A stretch of 47,626 bases of DNA from IMG/VR virus record IMGVR_UViG_3300001848_000368, positions 1 through 47,626 of that record; one strand, written 5' to 3'. This stretch comes from a virus. Under the pieces are notes generated by a model. The model worked only from the letters and a program-made list of their open reading frames with translations. It ran no database searches and was not told where the DNA came from. How positions within the stretch are numbered: the stretch's first letter is position 1; each line of letters opens with the position of its first letter. The position numbers were made by a program, and so were the translations under genes. Of the stretch, positions 947-12,348 are shown piece by piece.

Positions 947-3253
947 TTAGCCATGTCCGTCTCTCCAGTTCTTTGCAATCTCAGGAGGCGCTTTCAATGC
1001 AATACTTAAAGTGGTTGTTGTCTCCATTAATTCTTTAACTAATTGTGCTGCTTCTTGAGCTTTATCATGTTCAACCTCGCAAATAATCTGATCATGAATT
1101 TGAGCGCAAACTTGACCATTAATACCTCTATTTTTAAACTCTCTATTAATTGCTAAAGCAGCTCTATTTACAATAGATGCTGATAGGCCTTGTATCTGCA
1201 CATTTTTTGCGTTGTTAAGACCGTTTATGAAGTCTCTTGAAAGATTCGTAATTTTTTCTTTACCATATCTGTATTCTAACTCTTTCTTTGAGTTCCAATC
1301 TAATAAAGCATTGCCAAGAGTCTCGTAGATTTGTTTTACCTTTGGTAAGTGTCTTATCCTACCTACCTGAGTTTTAACATAACCTAATGTACGTGCGTCA
1401 GTCTCAGAGCGTTCCATCCATTTCTTTAATTCAGGAAATCCATCTAAATAACCATCTACAAGTTTTTTAGCTTCTTTAGTTGGTAGATTTATATTTTTAC
1501 CTAATGCAAAAGCACCCATTCCATAAGGAATACCTAGTGAATAAGCTTTAGCTTTATTTCTCACAGCTGGCGCTAATTTTCTAAGATAGTTGTCAGCTTT
1601 TTTATCTGGCGAGTATTGATTTAATTTTTCTGTTTTGATTGCAATAGTAGAATAGAAATCCCAGTTATTTCTAAAAATATCTTTAAGGCCTTCATCTCCA
1701 CTGACGTGTGCAAAAACGTGTGGCTCGAGTGACTCATAATCGCAATCAATGAATATATTATGCTCATCAGGAATAAAGAATGCTCTTACCATATTGGTAT
1801 ACTCAATAACTATCGGATCATCATCACCCTCTTCTTTTGGTTTTGGTAATTGTTGAGCATCAGATCCGTATCTACCGGAAACGGTGCCATGCTGACGATA
1901 ATAAAAGTAATATCTACCATCTTCCTCACCTTCTAAGAAACGATCAATATACGTTGAACTTATTTTGAGTAATCTATTATAAATTCTCAATGCTTTTGCC
2001 CACTCATGTTTTTCAGATATAGACTCAATAAATCCATCATCAAATTGAGGTTTACCTTTTGCAGTAGTAGATAACGATTTTATACCTAAAGCTCCAAATG
2101 CAATCTCACCCATTTGATCTTTTGATTGGATATTAAAGTACTTTCCATCATTTGCCTCTTTCCACAACTTCACGCAGATTTTAATTATCACATCTTGATC
2201 TAGAAGATTTTGATCTCCAGATTCAAAGAACTTTTTAATAGCTGAATCAGGTAGTTTAGAAATACTTGCTTGATTAATTGAGTATTTGCCAGTCTTTTCA
2301 GATTTAGGAACATCTAGATTATACTCAGCAATTAACATTTGTGCAAATGTGCCTTTGTTATTTACTGGGAAAGATTCCATTGCTTTTACAATAACCCATT
2401 TTTGCACCTCTTCATTTGCTAAAAGAGTTTTCATAACAAGATCAGAATATTTTTTCAATTCTAAAGTTATATTCTGTTTTGCATTTTTAATTAACTCCAC
2501 ATCTAGTCTAACACCTTTCTCTTCCATTGGGATTGTCACCTCTCTGTATAAAGGCATAACCTCATCTTCAAAGAAGAATTGTTCAAGACCCTCTGCTTCT
2601 AATGTCTTGATAAAATGGTTATAAACTCTGAGAGTAAGATCTGTATCTGCTGCAGCATATTTCCCAAGAATTTCAATATCAGCTTTCCAAATTTCATAGT
2701 TTTCTTTTGTTGTGGTTCCACCATTAAGTTTTATTGATTGTTTAAGTTCTATTTGCTCTTCATTTGCTTCAGCTTCCACGTCAAGATCAATATGCTTCTG
2801 AATCATCTTAGCTATCTCCTTCAAACCGAATGGTTTTCCAGATCCAAATCCCGCACCTTCCTCTTTTACTGTGTGTACTAATAACATAGTATCAACATAC
2901 AGACTTGGGAGTAAATTAATTTTATAGAATGCTTTTACAAATCGACAGTCAAATGACGCATTATGCATAATTAATTTCTTGCCAATAAGTAGGTTTATAC
3001 ACTTAACTGCAATATCATGACCCAATTTATCATCTATTTTGGAATCAATTAATTCACCGTCTTTAAAAATCATTGTTGGAAAGTAATAACCTGTACCAGG
3101 TTTTGAACTCACACTGAATCCTATAATTTTACCTTTTCTAGGATTTAGACTATTTGTCTCAGTATCAAATGCAATTAGATCACTTGATTTTATATACGAA
3201 ACCATTTCTGTCAACTTCTCTAAGTTGTCAACTAACACATAACTTTTTTCCAT
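947..3253 (-). CDS. polA: Family A DNA polymerase (PolA) with 3'-5' exonuclease
   Basis: This 768-aa Klenow-like enzyme is probably the main replicative polymerase. The exonuclease domain (about 20-210) keeps Exo I (D30, E32), Exo II (HNASFD, 97-102) and Exo III (Y199-x3-D203), so proofreading should be active. In the polymerase domain TVSGR (457-461) is followed by motif A with D505 (DYESLEPH), motif B R565-x3-K569-x7-Y577-G578 and motif C HDQ (720-722). Three departures from E. coli Pol I stand out: Leu573 at the Phe762 position, Gln722 in place of the Glu of HDE, and His512 in place of the Arg of IELR. There is no N-terminal 5'-3' exonuclease domain; that activity is encoded separately at 7570-8583. 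The leader ends in AAGTTATG, shared with the helicase and SSB genes. Confidence 0.96.
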   Translation of the reverse strand: MEKSYVLVDNLEKLTEMVSYIKSSDLIAFDTETNSLNPRKGKIIGFSVSSKPGTGYYFPTMIFKDGELIDSKIDDKLGHDIAVKCINLLIGKKLIMHNASFDCRFVKAFYKINLLPSLYVDTMLLVHTVKEEGAGFGSGKPFGLKEIAKMIQKHIDLDVEAEANEEQIELKQSIKLNGGTTTKENYEIWKADIEILGKYAAADTDLTLRVYNHFIKTLEAEGLEQFFFEDEVMPLYREVTIPMEEKGVRLDVELIKNAKQNITLELKKYSDLVMKTLLANEEVQKWVIVKAMESFPVNNKGTFAQMLIAEYNLDVPKSEKTGKYSINQASISKLPDSAIKKFFESGDQNLLDQDVIIKICVKLWKEANDGKYFNIQSKDQMGEIAFGALGIKSLSTTAKGKPQFDDGFIESISEKHEWAKALRIYNRLLKISSTYIDRFLEGEEDGRYYFYYRQHGTVSGRYGSDAQQLPKPKEEGDDDPIVIEYTNMVRAFFIPDEHNIFIDCDYESLEPHVFAHVSGDEGLKDIFRNNWDFYSTIAIKTEKLNQYSPDKKADNYLRKLAPAVRNKAKAYSLGIPYGMGAFALGKNINLPTKEAKKLVDGYLDGFPELKKWMERSETDARTLGYVKTQVGRIRHLPKVKQIYETLGNALLDWNSKKELEYRYGKEKITNLSRDFINGLNNAKNVQIQGLSASIVNRAALAINREFKNRGINGQVCAQIHDQIICEVEHDKAQEAAQLVKELMETTTTLSIALKAPPEIAKNWRDGHG

Positions 3254-6164: not shown

Positions 6165-7553
6165 TTATAACCCTAATTCAAAAAATTTGGTTTTTAAGTA
6201 TCCCCTCTCATCATTTGAGAAGTTACTGTTTTTAAATCCATTATTCTGGCTTCCTGTATCAAATGTTAATTGATCTTCAGACATCTCGTCTCTATCAATT
6301 TTAATAGATCCATTATGTGTATTGATTTGTGATCCATAAGTCATACCATCAGCTCCAAATCTGTTTTTCATAATATGAATACGGCCAGTTCCATTTACTT
6401 TGTCTTGACGCTTTCTTGAAAGAGACATCGCAAAGTCAGCAATCATAATCTTGTTATAAGATCCAGCAGCTTTATCACCCTCAATCACATCATCTTTTGC
6501 CCCAGCTCTATTTACTTGAGATACTGTCCAGATAGGCATTTTTAATTCTCTTGCCATTCCTTTAATAGCTGTATAAACATCATCAATCTCATCTTTTCTA
6601 TCAGTAGATTTTCTTCTTGAAGATAGAAGATCCACATAGTCTATAATAATAATATCTGGTTTGAATTGTAAATCAGAACATTTTTTAATGTGATTCTCAA
6701 TTGTCTGAGGTGTAGTTTTACCCATTGGAAATTCTTTGATAATTAATTTGCCTCCTAATTTAGATACCACATCATCAATTACTTGTCTGTTTTTAGAGAG
6801 ATTTTGAAAATCTATTCCTGTGAATAAAGCATCATATCTTTTTGCTGTATAGTCAGCAGATAATTCTAATGTGTAATGAGCAACATTCAAACCTCTTTTT
6901 ACAGCTTCTGCTCCTAAATTAACTAGCATCCAACTCTTACCTCCACCTGGATTACCAAAGATGATTCCAAGATCACCTCCACCAAGACCACCCATTAATA
7001 ATTCATTCACATGATCCCATGGAGTTGCTACAGCACCTCTTTCCTCTTCTCTATATCTAGATTCTACATCTTTGTCATATTCATGACCTAGATTTTTATC
7101 TTGACCGGCTTTTAAAGCTTGATCTACTAAAACTCTAATATCCTCATATTGACCTTTGCCAAGTAGATCTACTGAAGTTAACAATGCCTTTTTTAGTTGT
7201 TGATTTCTACAAAAATTACTAAACTCCTGTTCTACATAATTTTGATCTTCATTTGAAGCTTTGTATGCCTCTTTAATTTGATCTACTACACTCACTTTTA
7301 ATACTTCATTGTCAATCTTCTTTACTTCAATTTGAAGATAATCAAGACTTGGTGTTGTATGGAATTTATAATAAAACTTTAAGATTTGTGAAACAATCCA
7401 CTGTGACGACGGATTATCAAACATCTCAGGATATATTACATCATTAATAGTTTGTAAAAACTCTTTGTGCTTAAGTAAACTACTCAAAACCTTAATTTGA
7501 AATCCTGCACCGTAAGCAGTTAGTGTGTTTAGTACCTTTTGTTCATCTTGCAT
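6165..7553 (-). CDS. Replicative DNA helicase, DnaB/T4 gp41 type
   Basis: A hexameric 5'-3' replicative helicase that unwinds the fork. The 462-aa protein has an N-terminal helical domain (about 1-150), then a RecA-like ATPase core. Walker A is GNPGGGKSW (200-208), the catalytic Glu is in TLELS (Glu230), Walker B is IIIIDYVDLL (301-310), and SQVNRAG (345-351) is the DnaB-family motif 3 region. Length is close to T4 gp41 (475 aa). It follows the exonuclease gene with a 16-nt gap, and its leader ends in ATAAGTTATG as in polA. No primase gene is visible nearby, and no primase domain is fused. Confidence 0.92.
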   Translation of the reverse strand: MQDEQKVLNTLTAYGAGFQIKVLSSLLKHKEFLQTINDVIYPEMFDNPSSQWIVSQILKFYYKFHTTPSLDYLQIEVKKIDNEVLKVSVVDQIKEAYKASNEDQNYVEQEFSNFCRNQQLKKALLTSVDLLGKGQYEDIRVLVDQALKAGQDKNLGHEYDKDVESRYREEERGAVATPWDHVNELLMGGLGGGDLGIIFGNPGGGKSWMLVNLGAEAVKRGLNVAHYTLELSADYTAKRYDALFTGIDFQNLSKNRQVIDDVVSKLGGKLIIKEFPMGKTTPQTIENHIKKCSDLQFKPDIIIIDYVDLLSSRRKSTDRKDEIDDVYTAIKGMARELKMPIWTVSQVNRAGAKDDVIEGDKAAGSYNKIMIADFAMSLSRKRQDKVNGTGRIHIMKNRFGADGMTYGSQINTHNGSIKIDRDEMSEDQLTFDTGSQNNGFKNSNFSNDERGYLKTKFFELGL

Positions 7554-7569
7554 AACTTATTTTCTTTTT

Positions 7570-8583
7570 TTATTTATAAAACTTTAATTGATTGAAATTG
7601 TTAAATAACCAGGCTTGAGGATTGTTTATACTATTACCTAAATTATCTTCTGCATACAATTTAAGAAATTCCTGCGAATTCATATCTTTATTTGCTTCAA
7701 GTAGGATAGAATTTATTTCTTCAAGTGATTCTTCTGGGATATTTGGTGATTCTAGATTCATCAATTGTTTATTTATTCCTAATTGATGTTTATAGTTGAT
7801 AATACTTTCATAGTGTTTTCCTTTTTGGTCTTTACATTTTTCTAGTACATCTTCTAATTCTACTTTATTTTTTGTAGATAGCTCAGGGAATAATTTTATA
7901 AGTGTTTTTAATCCAAGTCCTTTTACTCCAGGAACATTATCTCCAGAATCTCCAAGTAGTATTTTTTGAGTTAAAAAGTTTTGAGCAGTAATTCCATATT
8001 CTTCAAGTACTAATTTTTCAGTATAAAACTTCTTTTTAGTTGGTGAAAATACTGTAACTCTATCTGATACCAATTGTAAATAGTCTCTATCAGACGAAAC
8101 TATAAAAACTTCTTTTTCTAATTTACCTGCAATATATCCAATAACATCATCTGCTTCAATCTTATCAATTGAAATTAAATCAACTGGTAAACATTTAAGA
8201 TATTCAATAAGTCGCAATAATTGATTTGTTATTGATTCTGATTCGTCTTCTTTTGAATCAAACATATCCCAATTTGTTACTCTATTACCGCCTCTATTAG
8301 CTTTATATTCTGGATATAGATACCTTTTATTAGTTGATCCACCATGTCCATCAAATACTAGAATCACTCTGGTAGGTTTAACAAGACTTATTGCATAAGA
8401 TAGAGATCTTAAAAATCCAGTCAACCCACCAATGTGATTTCCAGATTGATTCACATGTCTGATAACTGTAAATGATCTAAGAAATGAGTTTAAAGAGTCT
8501 ATTATAAGCACTCTGCTATTTAGAGATAGATCTAACTTCTCATCTTTGAGAGAGTTAAATAGTTCTTTGTATTGTTTATTCAT
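7570..8583 (-). CDS. 5'-3' exonuclease / RNase H (FEN family, T4 Rnh-like)
   Basis: This flap-type 5' nuclease probably removes RNA primers and processes Okazaki fragments, complementing a PolA without this domain. The 337-aa sequence carries the full set of FEN acidic metal ligands: Asp29 (LIIDSLNS), Asp78 (VFDGHGG), Glu143 and Asp145/146 (IEADDVIGY), Asp165 and Asp167 (SSDRDYLQL), and Asp212 and Asp215 in LLGDSGDNVPGVKGLG, the start of the helix-hairpin-helix. Length is similar to T4 Rnh (305 aa). It lies 5 nt after uvsX and just upstream of the helicase gene, so it belongs to the replication operon. Confidence 0.92.
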   Translation of the reverse strand: MNKQYKELFNSLKDEKLDLSLNSRVLIIDSLNSFLRSFTVIRHVNQSGNHIGGLTGFLRSLSYAISLVKPTRVILVFDGHGGSTNKRYLYPEYKANRGGNRVTNWDMFDSKEDESESITNQLLRLIEYLKCLPVDLISIDKIEADDVIGYIAGKLEKEVFIVSSDRDYLQLVSDRVTVFSPTKKKFYTEKLVLEEYGITAQNFLTQKILLGDSGDNVPGVKGLGLKTLIKLFPELSTKNKVELEDVLEKCKDQKGKHYESIINYKHQLGINKQLMNLESPNIPEESLEEINSILLEANKDMNSQEFLKLYAEDNLGNSINNPQAWLFNNFNQLKFYK

Positions 8584-8588
8584 TAGTT

Positions 8589-9668
8589 TTATTCTTCGTT
8601 ATCAAAAATATCAGCTTTAGATGATGAATCTTCAGCCTCTTCTACTACTTCAAATGGACCAGATCCCAATACTTGGCTCCATTCATCTGCGTGTGCAGCT
8701 TTATATTTGTCTAATTCTTTCTTATCATCAAATATAAATCCATGAACTGTCATAATAACTTTTGTTACAGCAGTAACTCCAGTTACGTGATTTTTATCGC
8801 AACTAATCTTTGTTCTTTTTGCAAACTCAACTTCTTTACCACCTTTAGTTGCTTTAATCTTATTAGTTCCTGCAGAAACAATATTACCAAAAGTAATTAC
8901 AAGAGATGCATCAAAATACATTGTATTTCCACCTTTATTACATAGTTTAGGTTGGCTCATAATAGTCTCAGGTTTTGCAACCCACACCTTATTAATAGCA
9001 ACCATAGTATTTGTATAAGGTTGGCTTTCTTTTCTGGATAAGATTATTCTTTGATTAATAAAATTTCCAAATTGTTGACTCATTGCTCCTGCATTCCATT
9101 CATTATTGTTCTTATTTGATTCTATAGAAAGTCTGCATGGAATAGATCCCACCGAATCCCAGAAGAAACATAAATCATATGGCAAGTTACCTCTTTTTTG
9201 CTCGTCTAAAATATCAGCAATAAATGCACTCACATCTTCAATACAATTTAATTTCTCACGATCAACAAAGATAAAAAATCCATTGTAATCAGAAACCACA
9301 CCGTCTTCATCTGCTACTTCATTAAATTGAAGTCCCATTTGTCTAGCATGATCCCAAGACCATTTCATTTCAGAAATAATAAATACAGGTAAGATACCCA
9401 TTTTTTGTGCTGATACAGCAGCCTCTAATAAAGCTGTGGTTTTACCAGTATCAGAATGTCCTCTTAATAGAGTGATATGACCAGTAGGAATACCAGGAAT
9501 TTGTAAAGCATCTTGAAATGCTTTTGATAATGGAATCCATGTTTGATCTTTGAATTTTACAGAAGTAGAACTTAGATTCTTAGACTTTTTAAAATTGTCT
9601 AAGTTGAAACTACCCTTATTTTTTATAGCGTCTGACACGCTTGCGTTAAGCGATTTTGCTTTTGCCAT
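8589..9668 (-). CDS. uvsX: RecA-like recombinase, UvsX type
   Basis: UvsX-type proteins coat single-stranded DNA and drive strand exchange for recombination-dependent replication and repair. The 359-aa protein has Walker A GHSDTGKTT (70-78), a catalytic-type Glu in ISEMKWSW (Glu100), and Walker B DLCFFWDS (165-172, Asp171), followed by an SIPCRL segment as in phage RecA proteins. The C-terminus is acidic, as in RecA/UvsX. Length is near T4 UvsX (391 aa). It follows the SSB gene after a strong hairpin terminator, so its expression may depend on readthrough; no exact ATATTTAT element precedes it. Confidence 0.93.
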   Translation of the reverse strand: MAKAKSLNASVSDAIKNKGSFNLDNFKKSKNLSSTSVKFKDQTWIPLSKAFQDALQIPGIPTGHITLLRGHSDTGKTTALLEAAVSAQKMGILPVFIISEMKWSWDHARQMGLQFNEVADEDGVVSDYNGFFIFVDREKLNCIEDVSAFIADILDEQKRGNLPYDLCFFWDSVGSIPCRLSIESNKNNNEWNAGAMSQQFGNFINQRIILSRKESQPYTNTMVAINKVWVAKPETIMSQPKLCNKGGNTMYFDASLVITFGNIVSAGTNKIKATKGGKEVEFAKRTKISCDKNHVTGVTAVTKVIMTVHGFIFDDKKELDKYKAAHADEWSQVLGSGPFEVVEEAEDSSSKADIFDNEE

Positions 9669-9722: not shown

Positions 9723-10535
9723 TTAGAAATCAGAGAATAAATCATCGATTTTAGAATCGATATTTGACTTCTGAGTGTTGAGAGAGTACTTTGCCTCTGG
9801 TTTTTCCCATGGCAAATCTGATGGTCCGTCATTTTTTACTTCTACTGAATCAGCATGTTCTTTAATTTCCTCTTCTGGGTTTAGATGAGCAAATAAAGCA
9901 GACTTCATCTCTTCGTAAGTAAATCTTTTGAACAATGTTGTTGGGTCAGGTTGTGTTTCTAACCATAACTTAACTTTATCAGCATCTTCTGATAGAGGAG
10001 TTATTTTTGTTCTTACACGAACTGTAGATGTGTTAAACATTAAACCAGTTGTTTCTTTTCCAGAGGTTTCAACAGTGATGTCTCTACCTTGGATTGGATC
10101 AGTGTAATCTCCAACATCTTCATCTTCAACCAAAGAAAGTAAGTCCATGTAGACTTGCTTACCAAATTCCCAAAGACGAACACCTTTGTCTTCCTCCCCT
10201 CTTACGATGACAGGTACAAATACTCTCAACTTTGGTTCTAGTTTTTTAGCAAGACTCCAATCCTCTTTTTCTTTGCTTTTTCTAAGGCCTTGTGCAAATT
10301 CAACAATAGGATCTTTTTCTCCAAAACTAATGGGTGATACCATCATTTTGTTTCCGATTCCATAGTGAATAAAAATTTCTCTAAACGGATTCTGTCTAGT
10401 ATAGGCAGAAGGCACAATTCGAATAGAGTGTTTTCCTACAGTTGGTTTCCAGATAGTGAGGCTAAAGTCCTTCTTTTGCCCACCACGCGGATTCTGTAAC
10501 GCGGATAGTCGCGATTTGAGTGCTGTTAAATCCAT
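9723..10535 (-). CDS. Single-stranded DNA-binding protein, T4 gp32-like
   Basis: It binds and protects single-stranded DNA at the fork. The 270-aa protein has a basic N-terminus (about 1-40), a central OB-like core with WKPTVGKHSIRIVPSAY and a FREIFIHYG segment, and a C-terminal acidic domain ending in IDDLFSDF, the sort of tail used to recruit partners. It contains no cysteine at all, so it lacks the zinc site of T4 gp32. Its order, SSB then UvsX then exonuclease then helicase, supports the assignment. The leader ends in TTAAGTTATG and a strong terminator follows the gene, fitting high expression. Confidence 0.85.
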   Translation of the reverse strand: MDLTALKSRLSALQNPRGGQKKDFSLTIWKPTVGKHSIRIVPSAYTRQNPFREIFIHYGIGNKMMVSPISFGEKDPIVEFAQGLRKSKEKEDWSLAKKLEPKLRVFVPVIVRGEEDKGVRLWEFGKQVYMDLLSLVEDEDVGDYTDPIQGRDITVETSGKETTGLMFNTSTVRVRTKITPLSEDADKVKLWLETQPDPTTLFKRFTYEEMKSALFAHLNPEEEIKEHADSVEVKNDGPSDLPWEKPEAKYSLNTQKSNIDSKIDDLFSDF

Positions 10536-10589: not shown

Positions 10590-11018
10590 CTATACAGTGA
10601 TAATTTTGTGAATTAATGTGTTTAGTTTTCTGAGATTTGTTCCTTGGGTTAATAACACACTATTTTGATAGTCTCTCCAAGGTATTGGGAAAGTTGAATC
10701 AAGAACTCCCTCATTCATCGATTTAATCAAGATGTTTAAGGCATTAATTGTATAAAGAGTATTAGTCTCTTTTTTTCTATGAAGTAGAATTGTATTTTCC
10801 AGAATACGAACGGATTTACCCTCTTCTGGTTCTATATTATAAGTGCATATATATTCTTCTGATTCTGGTGAAGCTAACACAAAGATCTTACGATAAAGAA
10901 TCTTGTACTCTTTATTTATTTCATGCAAACATATATCCAAATCTTCTTTGGCGCAAAATGTAGCAAATAATTTATTACTCATGAAATCCGATGTTAGATC
11001 TATTAATTGTTCTTCCAT
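10590..11018 (-). CDS. Hypothetical protein in the replication cluster, 142 aa
   Basis: I do not recognise this 142-residue protein. It is mixed alpha/beta, opens with an acidic stretch, and ends in WRDYQNSVLLTQGTNLRKL, a helix-rich tail. It has no nuclease, ATPase or zinc motif. It sits between the divergent polymerase-like gene and the SSB gene and has its own ATATTTAT element 16 nt upstream. An accessory role in replication or late transcription would fit the position but is only a guess. Confidence 0.65.
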   Translation of the reverse strand: MEEQLIDLTSDFMSNKLFATFCAKEDLDICLHEINKEYKILYRKIFVLASPESEEYICTYNIEPEEGKSVRILENTILLHRKKETNTLYTINALNILIKSMNEGVLDSTFPIPWRDYQNSVLLTQGTNLRKLNTLIHKIITV

Positions 11019-11052: not shown

Positions 11053-12348
11053 TTAGAAAGCATATGTTTTACCATATTTGTGTTTTACAATCATATTACC
11101 TTCTTGTAATATATTTTTAATGTTTGTTAATGTGTCTTTTCCATCTTCAATTGAAAAATCAAAAAGAAAAGAATCGTATGTTATTAATATTAATTCTGTT
11201 GATTTGTCTTTTAAATAGTCTACTAAAGAGTTAATCTTTGTGATATTCTCTTTAGTTTCCATATTTTGTACTATGTAATTAAACAACCTTAATTTATTCA
11301 TATTATCAGACTTCTTTATAAGTCTCCCCGTTGGTAATAGAGTACCACCAAATGTATTATATTTTTTCCATTCTTTATCAATATAACTATCAAGTGAGGC
11401 AAAAAAGTCAATATTTTTATATTTTTCTTCAACTCCACCATATAATTGGCGAAAAGTAATCTCTTTTGACTTTTTATACTCTTCCTCAGAAAGCTCATCT
11501 TTTTCAAAGTATAATTTTCCAAGTGTCAAGTGCATAGATTCATCAGAACACTCAAAATTTATTAATTTTGCGATTAATCTTAAATGATATGCATCAAAGT
11601 CAAATTCGACTAAAAGATCATTTTTTGGTAAAAAACACTCTCTAAATTCTTTGTCTTTTGGTATAGCTAAGAAATTGATGCCATTAAACGCATTTGTGGG
11701 CCTTCCTGTGGTATTATATAGATTATATGTCCCATATATAAGATCGCCGCTTATTGAGTACTCAGGCGCGTTAGGTTGATATTTTTGAAAGAATAGACTC
11801 TTATCTATTTTTATTCCTTTTTCTTCAACACATTTATAAGCACTAATAAGATCATCTTCTTTTTCAGTCTCAGTTTCTAATTCTAAAAGATTTTTTACTT
11901 TGAAAAAAAGACACTCACATTTCTCGTAGTGTTTGCTGATAGGGATAAACTTATTAATTGATTTATCAACTCCATGTTTTATATAATAATCTCTGTGTAA
12001 AGTGGTATCGCAATCAAACTCATCAAATTTACCAGCTTGATTAATGTTAATAAATTGAACATCAATACAATTTTTTATATCTAGAAAATATGAATGATAT
12101 TTTTTATCTAATAGGTAAACTTTCTGGTGGGAATTTATAAAGTCTTGAATTTTGCTTAGATCTAAGTTAAATCCTTCACAATGATCTACTACAAAGATAT
12201 ATCCCTTACTAAAGTTATTATAATATATTAAAGAGGTTGTTGATAGTTTTGGATGGAACTTATCGTTCCCAGATATTACCTGAATAAAACAGGATTGTTC
12301 TGGCTGCAGTTGAGCCAATTGATTAACATCTTCTATTACAAAATACAT
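11053..12348 (-). CDS. Divergent second family A DNA polymerase-like protein, 431 aa
   Basis: This protein keeps the skeleton of a Pol I polymerase domain but is highly diverged. TTGRPTN (213-219) matches the TxxGR element, DFDAYHLR (250-257) aligns with motif A DYSQIELR, K295-x3-F299-x3-Y303-G304 matches the second half of motif B, and ITYDSF (389-394) matches motif C. Both metal-binding aspartates (Asp250, Asp392) remain, but Glu710, Arg754, His881 and Glu883 equivalents are His255, Tyr291, Tyr391 and Ser393. The first 150 residues look like a degenerate exonuclease fold without the DxE motif. It could be an active specialised polymerase, a structural replication factor, or a paralogue losing function. 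It is intact and lies just upstream of the SSB block. Confidence 0.75.
   Translation of the reverse strand: MYFVIEDVNQLAQLQPEQSCFIQVISGNDKFHPKLSTTSLIYYNNFSKGYIFVVDHCEGFNLDLSKIQDFINSHQKVYLLDKKYHSYFLDIKNCIDVQFININQAGKFDEFDCDTTLHRDYYIKHGVDKSINKFIPISKHYEKCECLFFKVKNLLELETETEKEDDLISAYKCVEEKGIKIDKSLFFQKYQPNAPEYSISGDLIYGTYNLYNTTGRPTNAFNGINFLAIPKDKEFRECFLPKNDLLVEFDFDAYHLRLIAKLINFECSDESMHLTLGKLYFEKDELSEEEYKKSKEITFRQLYGGVEEKYKNIDFFASLDSYIDKEWKKYNTFGGTLLPTGRLIKKSDNMNKLRLFNYIVQNMETKENITKINSLVDYLKDKSTELILITYDSFLFDFSIEDGKDTLTNIKNILQEGNMIVKHKYGKTYAF

Follow-up and report, generated by a model that had tools for sequence, protein, structure and literature searches.

The closest described system is divPolA1, a family of diverged family A DNA polymerases named by Yutin et al. 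2024 (Virol J 21:200; PMC11348598), which the passages of that paper devoted to it report in 14 phages, Flavobacterium phage immuto included. According to these passages, phages with divPolA1 also encode a regular polymerase (PolA, PolB or PolC), and the gene lies in a conserved replication neighbourhood. The protein keeps the palm residues and has a truncated thumb and an inactive exonuclease; the authors infer that polymerase activity is retained (PMC11348598). Below we report the analysis of a gene of this type, called F1 here, in a viral stretch of 47,626 nucleotides, which as a whole is called the window (IMG/VR virus record IMGVR_UViG_3300001848_000368, positions 1 to 47,626).

F1 lies at positions 11053..12348 on the minus strand and encodes a small family A polymerase homologue of 431 aa, assigned to the divPolA1 type by alignment, AlphaFold, Foldseek and the literature. 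A first-pass annotation, made from the sequence alone, had given exactly these coordinates, though the frame is open on the minus strand only. By tblastn the window protein is 36.9% identical over 99% to immuto gp001 (MW353175-7; E=4e-76). Taken by itself, the 431-aa protein has no match in Pfam, matches PHROG weakly (phrog 15971 'DNA polymerase I', E=5.5e-4), and as a single query finds nothing in the PDB sequence search, for which reason a family profile was needed. Based on an alignment of 96 non-redundant F1 relatives (A1), this profile matches Klenow at E=5e-4. Pfam DNA_pol_A (PF00476) is matched by 37 of the 96 members at E<=0.01, the best at 7e-13, and the immuto relative, at 43.9 bits, is above the cut-off of 34.3. 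The AlphaFold2 model built from A1 has a pLDDT of 93.4 and a pTM of 0.90; its best Foldseek matches in the PDB are family A polymerases, with the apicoplast polymerase at E=5e-21 and Klenow 1d8y at a query TM of 0.75, and viral PolAs are also among the matches. On the whole, F1 is a diverged family A polymerase with homology beyond chance, and the earlier assignment to the Pol I family is borne out by the family profile search and by AlphaFold and Foldseek alike.

The window F1 is also a member of divPolA1, the family already named in the cited passages of Yutin et al. 2024. It is homologous to the immuto protein over its full length, is accompanied by a second, regular polymerase, and has replication genes downstream; its thumb is truncated, its exonuclease aspartates are replaced, and the palm residues D250/K295/Y303/Q361/D392 are present. 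Two PolA genes in a T4-type phage had been called unusual in the first-pass annotation: a second PolA-type gene is indeed present, but the situation is the one already reported as divPolA1 in those passages.

The domains and active-site residues were assigned on an alignment with E. coli Klenow, T7, HMO-2011, Staphylococcus phage G15, Microbacterium phage Alakazam and the window's own PolA; all features given here are on the minus strand. In the exonuclease-like N-terminal domain (residues 1-145; 11914..12348) the catalytic residues of DxE, exo II and exo III are absent: the lack of DxE agrees with what had been noted before, LDKK stands at the exo II position, and the exo III region is missing altogether. 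Conserved in this domain are N28, H32, H56, K82, K83 and D96. The thumb is reduced to a remnant in the alignment and the AlphaFold model (residues 161-211; 11716..11868), with about 95 residues missing between ExxGxxID at the thumb start and the hairpin preceding TxxGRP; residues 191 to 232 of the model contain no helix, and a complete family A thumb is not present. The fingers are shortened by about 14 residues after motif B. These thumb and fingers deletions, as well as the exo II and exo III losses, had been missed earlier and are seen in the alignment.

The polymerase motifs follow in the usual order of the alignment, starting with TTGRP (residues 213-217; 11698..11712) and motif A, DFDAYHLR (residues 250-257; 11578..11601), where D250 is the catalytic D705 and H255 takes the place of the steric gate E710. 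Motif B, YKKSKEITFRQLYG (residues 291-304; 11437..11478), has Y291 at R754, K295 at K758, F299 at F762 and Y303 at Y766; the helix Q motif, NYIVQNMETKEN (residues 357-368; 11245..11280), contains the N845/Q849 equivalents and the invariant E364, T365 and N368; and motif C, YDSFLFD (residues 391-397; 11158..11178), carries D392, the catalytic D882. The alignment thereby confirms the residue assignments made from the sequence alone, including T214/R216/P217, Y303-G304 (Y766-G767), N357/Q361 (N845/Q849), Y391 (H881) and S393 (E883). Neither Glu710 nor Arg754 of family A is retained, His and Tyr standing in their places. Among the supporting-residue changes claimed at first, E710 to His, R754 to Tyr and H881 to Tyr are unusual, while E883 to Ser is ordinary, HDS being present in three of the other phage PolAs aligned.

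Among 244 complete F1 relatives, D250, K295, F299, Y303, G304, Q361 and E364 are identical in all (244/244), and D392 is present in 243, the remaining one having an alignment gap, so that both catalytic aspartates are kept in close relatives as had been claimed. The unusual residues are equally uniform, with D252, H255 and Y291 in 244/244 and Y391 in 243. The reading frame is intact in all complete copies, and the median pairwise dN/dS within the three F1 clades, obtained by a simple counting method, is 0.065, 0.072 and 0.103. Since the unusual residues are uniform and these values mean strong purifying selection, F1 is not degenerating, and the word 'degenerate' used for it at first is misleading. 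The first-pass reading had been made to depend on a palm, fingers and thumb fold and on the two aspartates in close relatives; fold, aspartates and context hold, except that the thumb is strongly truncated.

Two more distant contigs, L307 and L308 (= L312), were reached via the companion gene F8 described below. They have at the same locus a short polymerase with canonical E710, R754 and HDS, and with a similarly short thumb. In L307 (7859-9076) and L312 (10010-11227) this short PolA is followed by a 279-aa gene and then by F8. The distant relative L311 keeps H255 and Y391, with Gln at D252 and apparently also at Y291. The core common to the close relatives and the distant L304, L311, L307 and L308 consists of D705, K758, F762, Y766, Q849 and D882. 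L310 and L311 are labelled as bacterial MAGs (one 'Rickettsiaceae') yet carry gp53-like, hub, divPolA1 and F8 genes, and are probably phage contigs binned with bacteria.

Scans of viral contigs give 396 confirmed stretches with the window query, 109 with the Mel-JY01 query and 312 with the immuto query, overlaps retained, and no relative with the copy of LR756508. Counting convincing matches only, the annotated phage records with F1 are four of immuto, Microcystis phage Mel-JY01 and the 484-kb LR756508. The clade of the window F1 is a separate one, for which the searched collection contains no isolate; the window copy and immuto are about 37% identical. As the first-pass annotation had stated, the window also encodes a full-length PolA with a 3'-5' exonuclease, the presumed replicase (947..3253, minus strand; Pfam E=5e-68), which in the alignment retains E710 and R754 and has the look of an intact polymerase. 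The position equivalent to 762 is occupied by Leu (AKAYSLGIPYG), the residue associated with the virioplankton 'Leu762' clades. Directly adjoining it is a GIY-YIG/homing-endonuclease-like gene at 314-922 on the minus strand (phrog_314, E=1.3e-10).

The regular polymerase differs between the clades, the comparison covering PolA and PolB. In the large genomes of the window clade and of the immuto clade it is a full PolA, with PolB absent, and one immuto-clade fragment has the small polymerase only; Mel-JY01, LR756508 and those large Mel-JY01-clade contigs in which a regular polymerase is detectable carry PolB, without a further PolA above the cut-off. The family B matches span two open frames in LR756508 (260623-266900) and contig G010 (53555-55532), perhaps by an intron, a split gene or a frameshift. 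In a PolB phage of the lineage gp44 is found near gp43, and a search for gp44 in two PolA genomes gave no match. Because the carriers have either PolA or PolB, F1 did not split off from the PolA of its own phage. A recent duplication of that gene was rejected, PolB phages carrying F1 too; profile comparison of the two also yields no meaningful match (probability 0.4%), which is weak evidence given the low-diversity profile. The early suggestion of a subfunctionalised polymerase or a polymerase-derived replication factor thus stands as to the factor (fold, aspartates, context), but not as to a copy of the own PolA.

F1 is located upstream of a T4-like replication cluster on the same strand. After a gap of 34 nt comes F8, 142 aa and of no known family or fold (10590..11018), then a gp32-like single-strand DNA binding protein (9723..10535; Pfam gp32 E=6e-11) and, by Pfam and PHROG, a UvsX/RecA-like recombinase (8589..9668), a 5'-3' exonuclease of RNase H type (7570..8583) and a gp41/DnaB-like replicative helicase (6165..7553). 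The order gp53-like, hub, F6, F1, F8, gp32, UvsX/RecA, exonuclease, gp41 is common to PolA and PolB phages, apart from a few loci in which F8 was not scored as an ORF. A single A/B split suffices for each of the three gene trees (F1, gp41, exonuclease), an indication of one A/B change that is limited by the long branches and by the lack of a known root. Only the PolB clade (L166 and relatives) has inserted genes between F8 and gp32, namely F11, F12, F20 and F26.

The companion F8 follows F1 in each of the 159 loci that extend far enough to be tested (at least 2.5 kb downstream), and when F8 is searched first, F1 is upstream in all 61 loci having at least 1.5 kb upstream. General synteny contributes to this linkage, since most loci come from one lineage. 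F8 is restricted to the six phage records that also have F1, whereas relatives of gp41 and gp32 are far more widespread. It is highly conserved (HRKKExNTLYTINALN in alignment A3) and its model is confident (pLDDT 89); the model has no match among PDB folds at E <= 0.001, and the sequence has no reliable match in Pfam or PDB. F8 as a gp59 or gp33 was rejected, hhalign showing no similarity.

Taking sequence and model together, we suggest, with a probability of about 0.58, that F1 is an accessory polymerase recruited by partners in recombination-coupled replication, and it would be an old one in a T4-like phage lineage. The two-metal aspartates and the residues K758, F762, Y766 and Q849 are kept, and F1 therefore probably still adds nucleotides on a template; as the duplex-gripping thumb is largely gone and proofreading is lost, it should be distributive, error-prone when alone, and placed on DNA by a partner. 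The likeliest partners would be the adjacent F8, gp32 and the UvsX recombinase. Its job may be short synthesis at recombination intermediates or gaps, e.g. at the 3' end of a D-loop, after which the main polymerase would take over. In this proposal catalysis is argued from the conserved active-site core, recruitment from the linked genes and the missing thumb, and the replication step from the neighbours gp32, UvsX and gp41; like these three, the substrate is something we infer.

What speaks against an accessory polymerase is that E710, R754 and H881 are all replaced in the window's lineage. In Pol I these residues help in dNTP binding, sugar selection and primer seating, and the loss of R754 is strongly inhibitory in Klenow; moreover, a thumb so short may fail to hold the primer terminus. 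Because the three are lost together, two other readings keep some weight. F1 could be a catalytically dead polymerase fold serving as a scaffold, e.g. for helicase loading or for holding gp32 or UvsX at forks, in the place of gp59/gp33. The same replacements together with the absent thumb and exonuclease would fit this, as would the position of the locus next to gp32, which matches T4 genes 59 and 33, and phmmer with single T4 queries finds no gp59/gp33 homologue in three genomes of the lineage, which is weak evidence for absence. However, the aspartates should disappear from a family whose polymerases are dead, and these, with K758, F762, Y766 and Q849, are kept in the complete relatives and in L304, L311, L307 and L308, so we consider a scaffold unlikely. 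F1 could also polymerise ribonucleotides as a primer-making, primer-extending or transcription enzyme, a reading prompted by the uniform His in place of Glu710, the steric gate against ribonucleotides in Pol I (PMC13228545), H255 being invariant in 244/244 relatives; an RNA polymerase role is raised in the cited passages of Yutin et al. for the other family, divPolA2 (PMC11348598). On the other hand, His is not small, F762 and Y766 are retained, and each of the three genomes examined has a DnaG-type primase, by which F1 as a primase replacement was rejected; the ribonucleotide reading is decidedly improbable. Motif C in the form YDS/YDA was set aside as a sign of an RNA polymerase, since HDS is common in ordinary phage DNA polymerases.

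It is very improbable that F1 is the actual replicative core with the full PolA or PolB doing repair. The point made in the passages of Yutin et al. (PMC11348598), that F1 and not the regular polymerase sits in the conserved replication cluster, agrees with such a role, but F1 has neither thumb nor proofreading, the gp44 clamp loader is kept near gp43 in the PolB phage, and the large genomes of the PolA clades have the full-length polymerase. A decaying remnant, for which the shortness relative to Pol I and the lost motifs could be taken, is already refuted by the intact frame, dN/dS of 0.07-0.10 and residues invariant over hundreds of contigs. Tentatively, F8 might also be the second, obligate subunit of a nucleotidyltransferase whose other subunit is divPolA1; F8 would then replace the thumb, and the His/Tyr/Tyr site would have a shifted substrate (sugar or primer end) relative to the canonical orthologue that a few phages still have at this locus (L307, L312); we regard this as doubtful.

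Overall, divPolA1 occurs widely among aquatic phages and remains tied to the gp32-recombinase-helicase cluster under a family A or a family B replicase, and is therefore a stable component of the replication genes. The window F1 agrees with divPolA1 (immuto gp001) in full-length homology, extra polymerase, neighbourhood, thumb, dead exonuclease and palm, with no essential difference except for its separate clade. Added here are the F8 companion and the two same-locus orthologues with canonical residues; the passages of Yutin et al. 2024 (PMC11348598) contain no mention of these orthologues, of F8 or of the uniform H255/Y291/Y391. As described there by the authors, divPolA2 of barbaviruses is similarly an extra diverged PolA beside a regular PolB and has no usable 3'-5' exonuclease, but is set apart by an unrelated N-terminal domain and a variable neighbourhood, unlike the exonuclease-like domain and fixed locus of F1. 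T4 gp59/gp33 resemble the pair F1 and F8 in lying beside gene 32 in a T4-like cluster, and differ from F8 in sequence and from F1 in that the latter has a polymerase fold. If a polymerase works, or is useful, with almost no thumb, it would put to the test how much of the right hand is required, a question which the canonical-residue orthologues and F8 make directly testable. Compared with E. coli Klenow and T7 gp5, F1 has the same fold, motif order and residues D705, K758, Y766, Q849 and D882, with Phe at F762 as in E. coli and Tyr there in T7, while it differs by a thumb about 95 and fingers about 14 residues shorter, a dead exonuclease, and the replacement of E710, R754 and H881.
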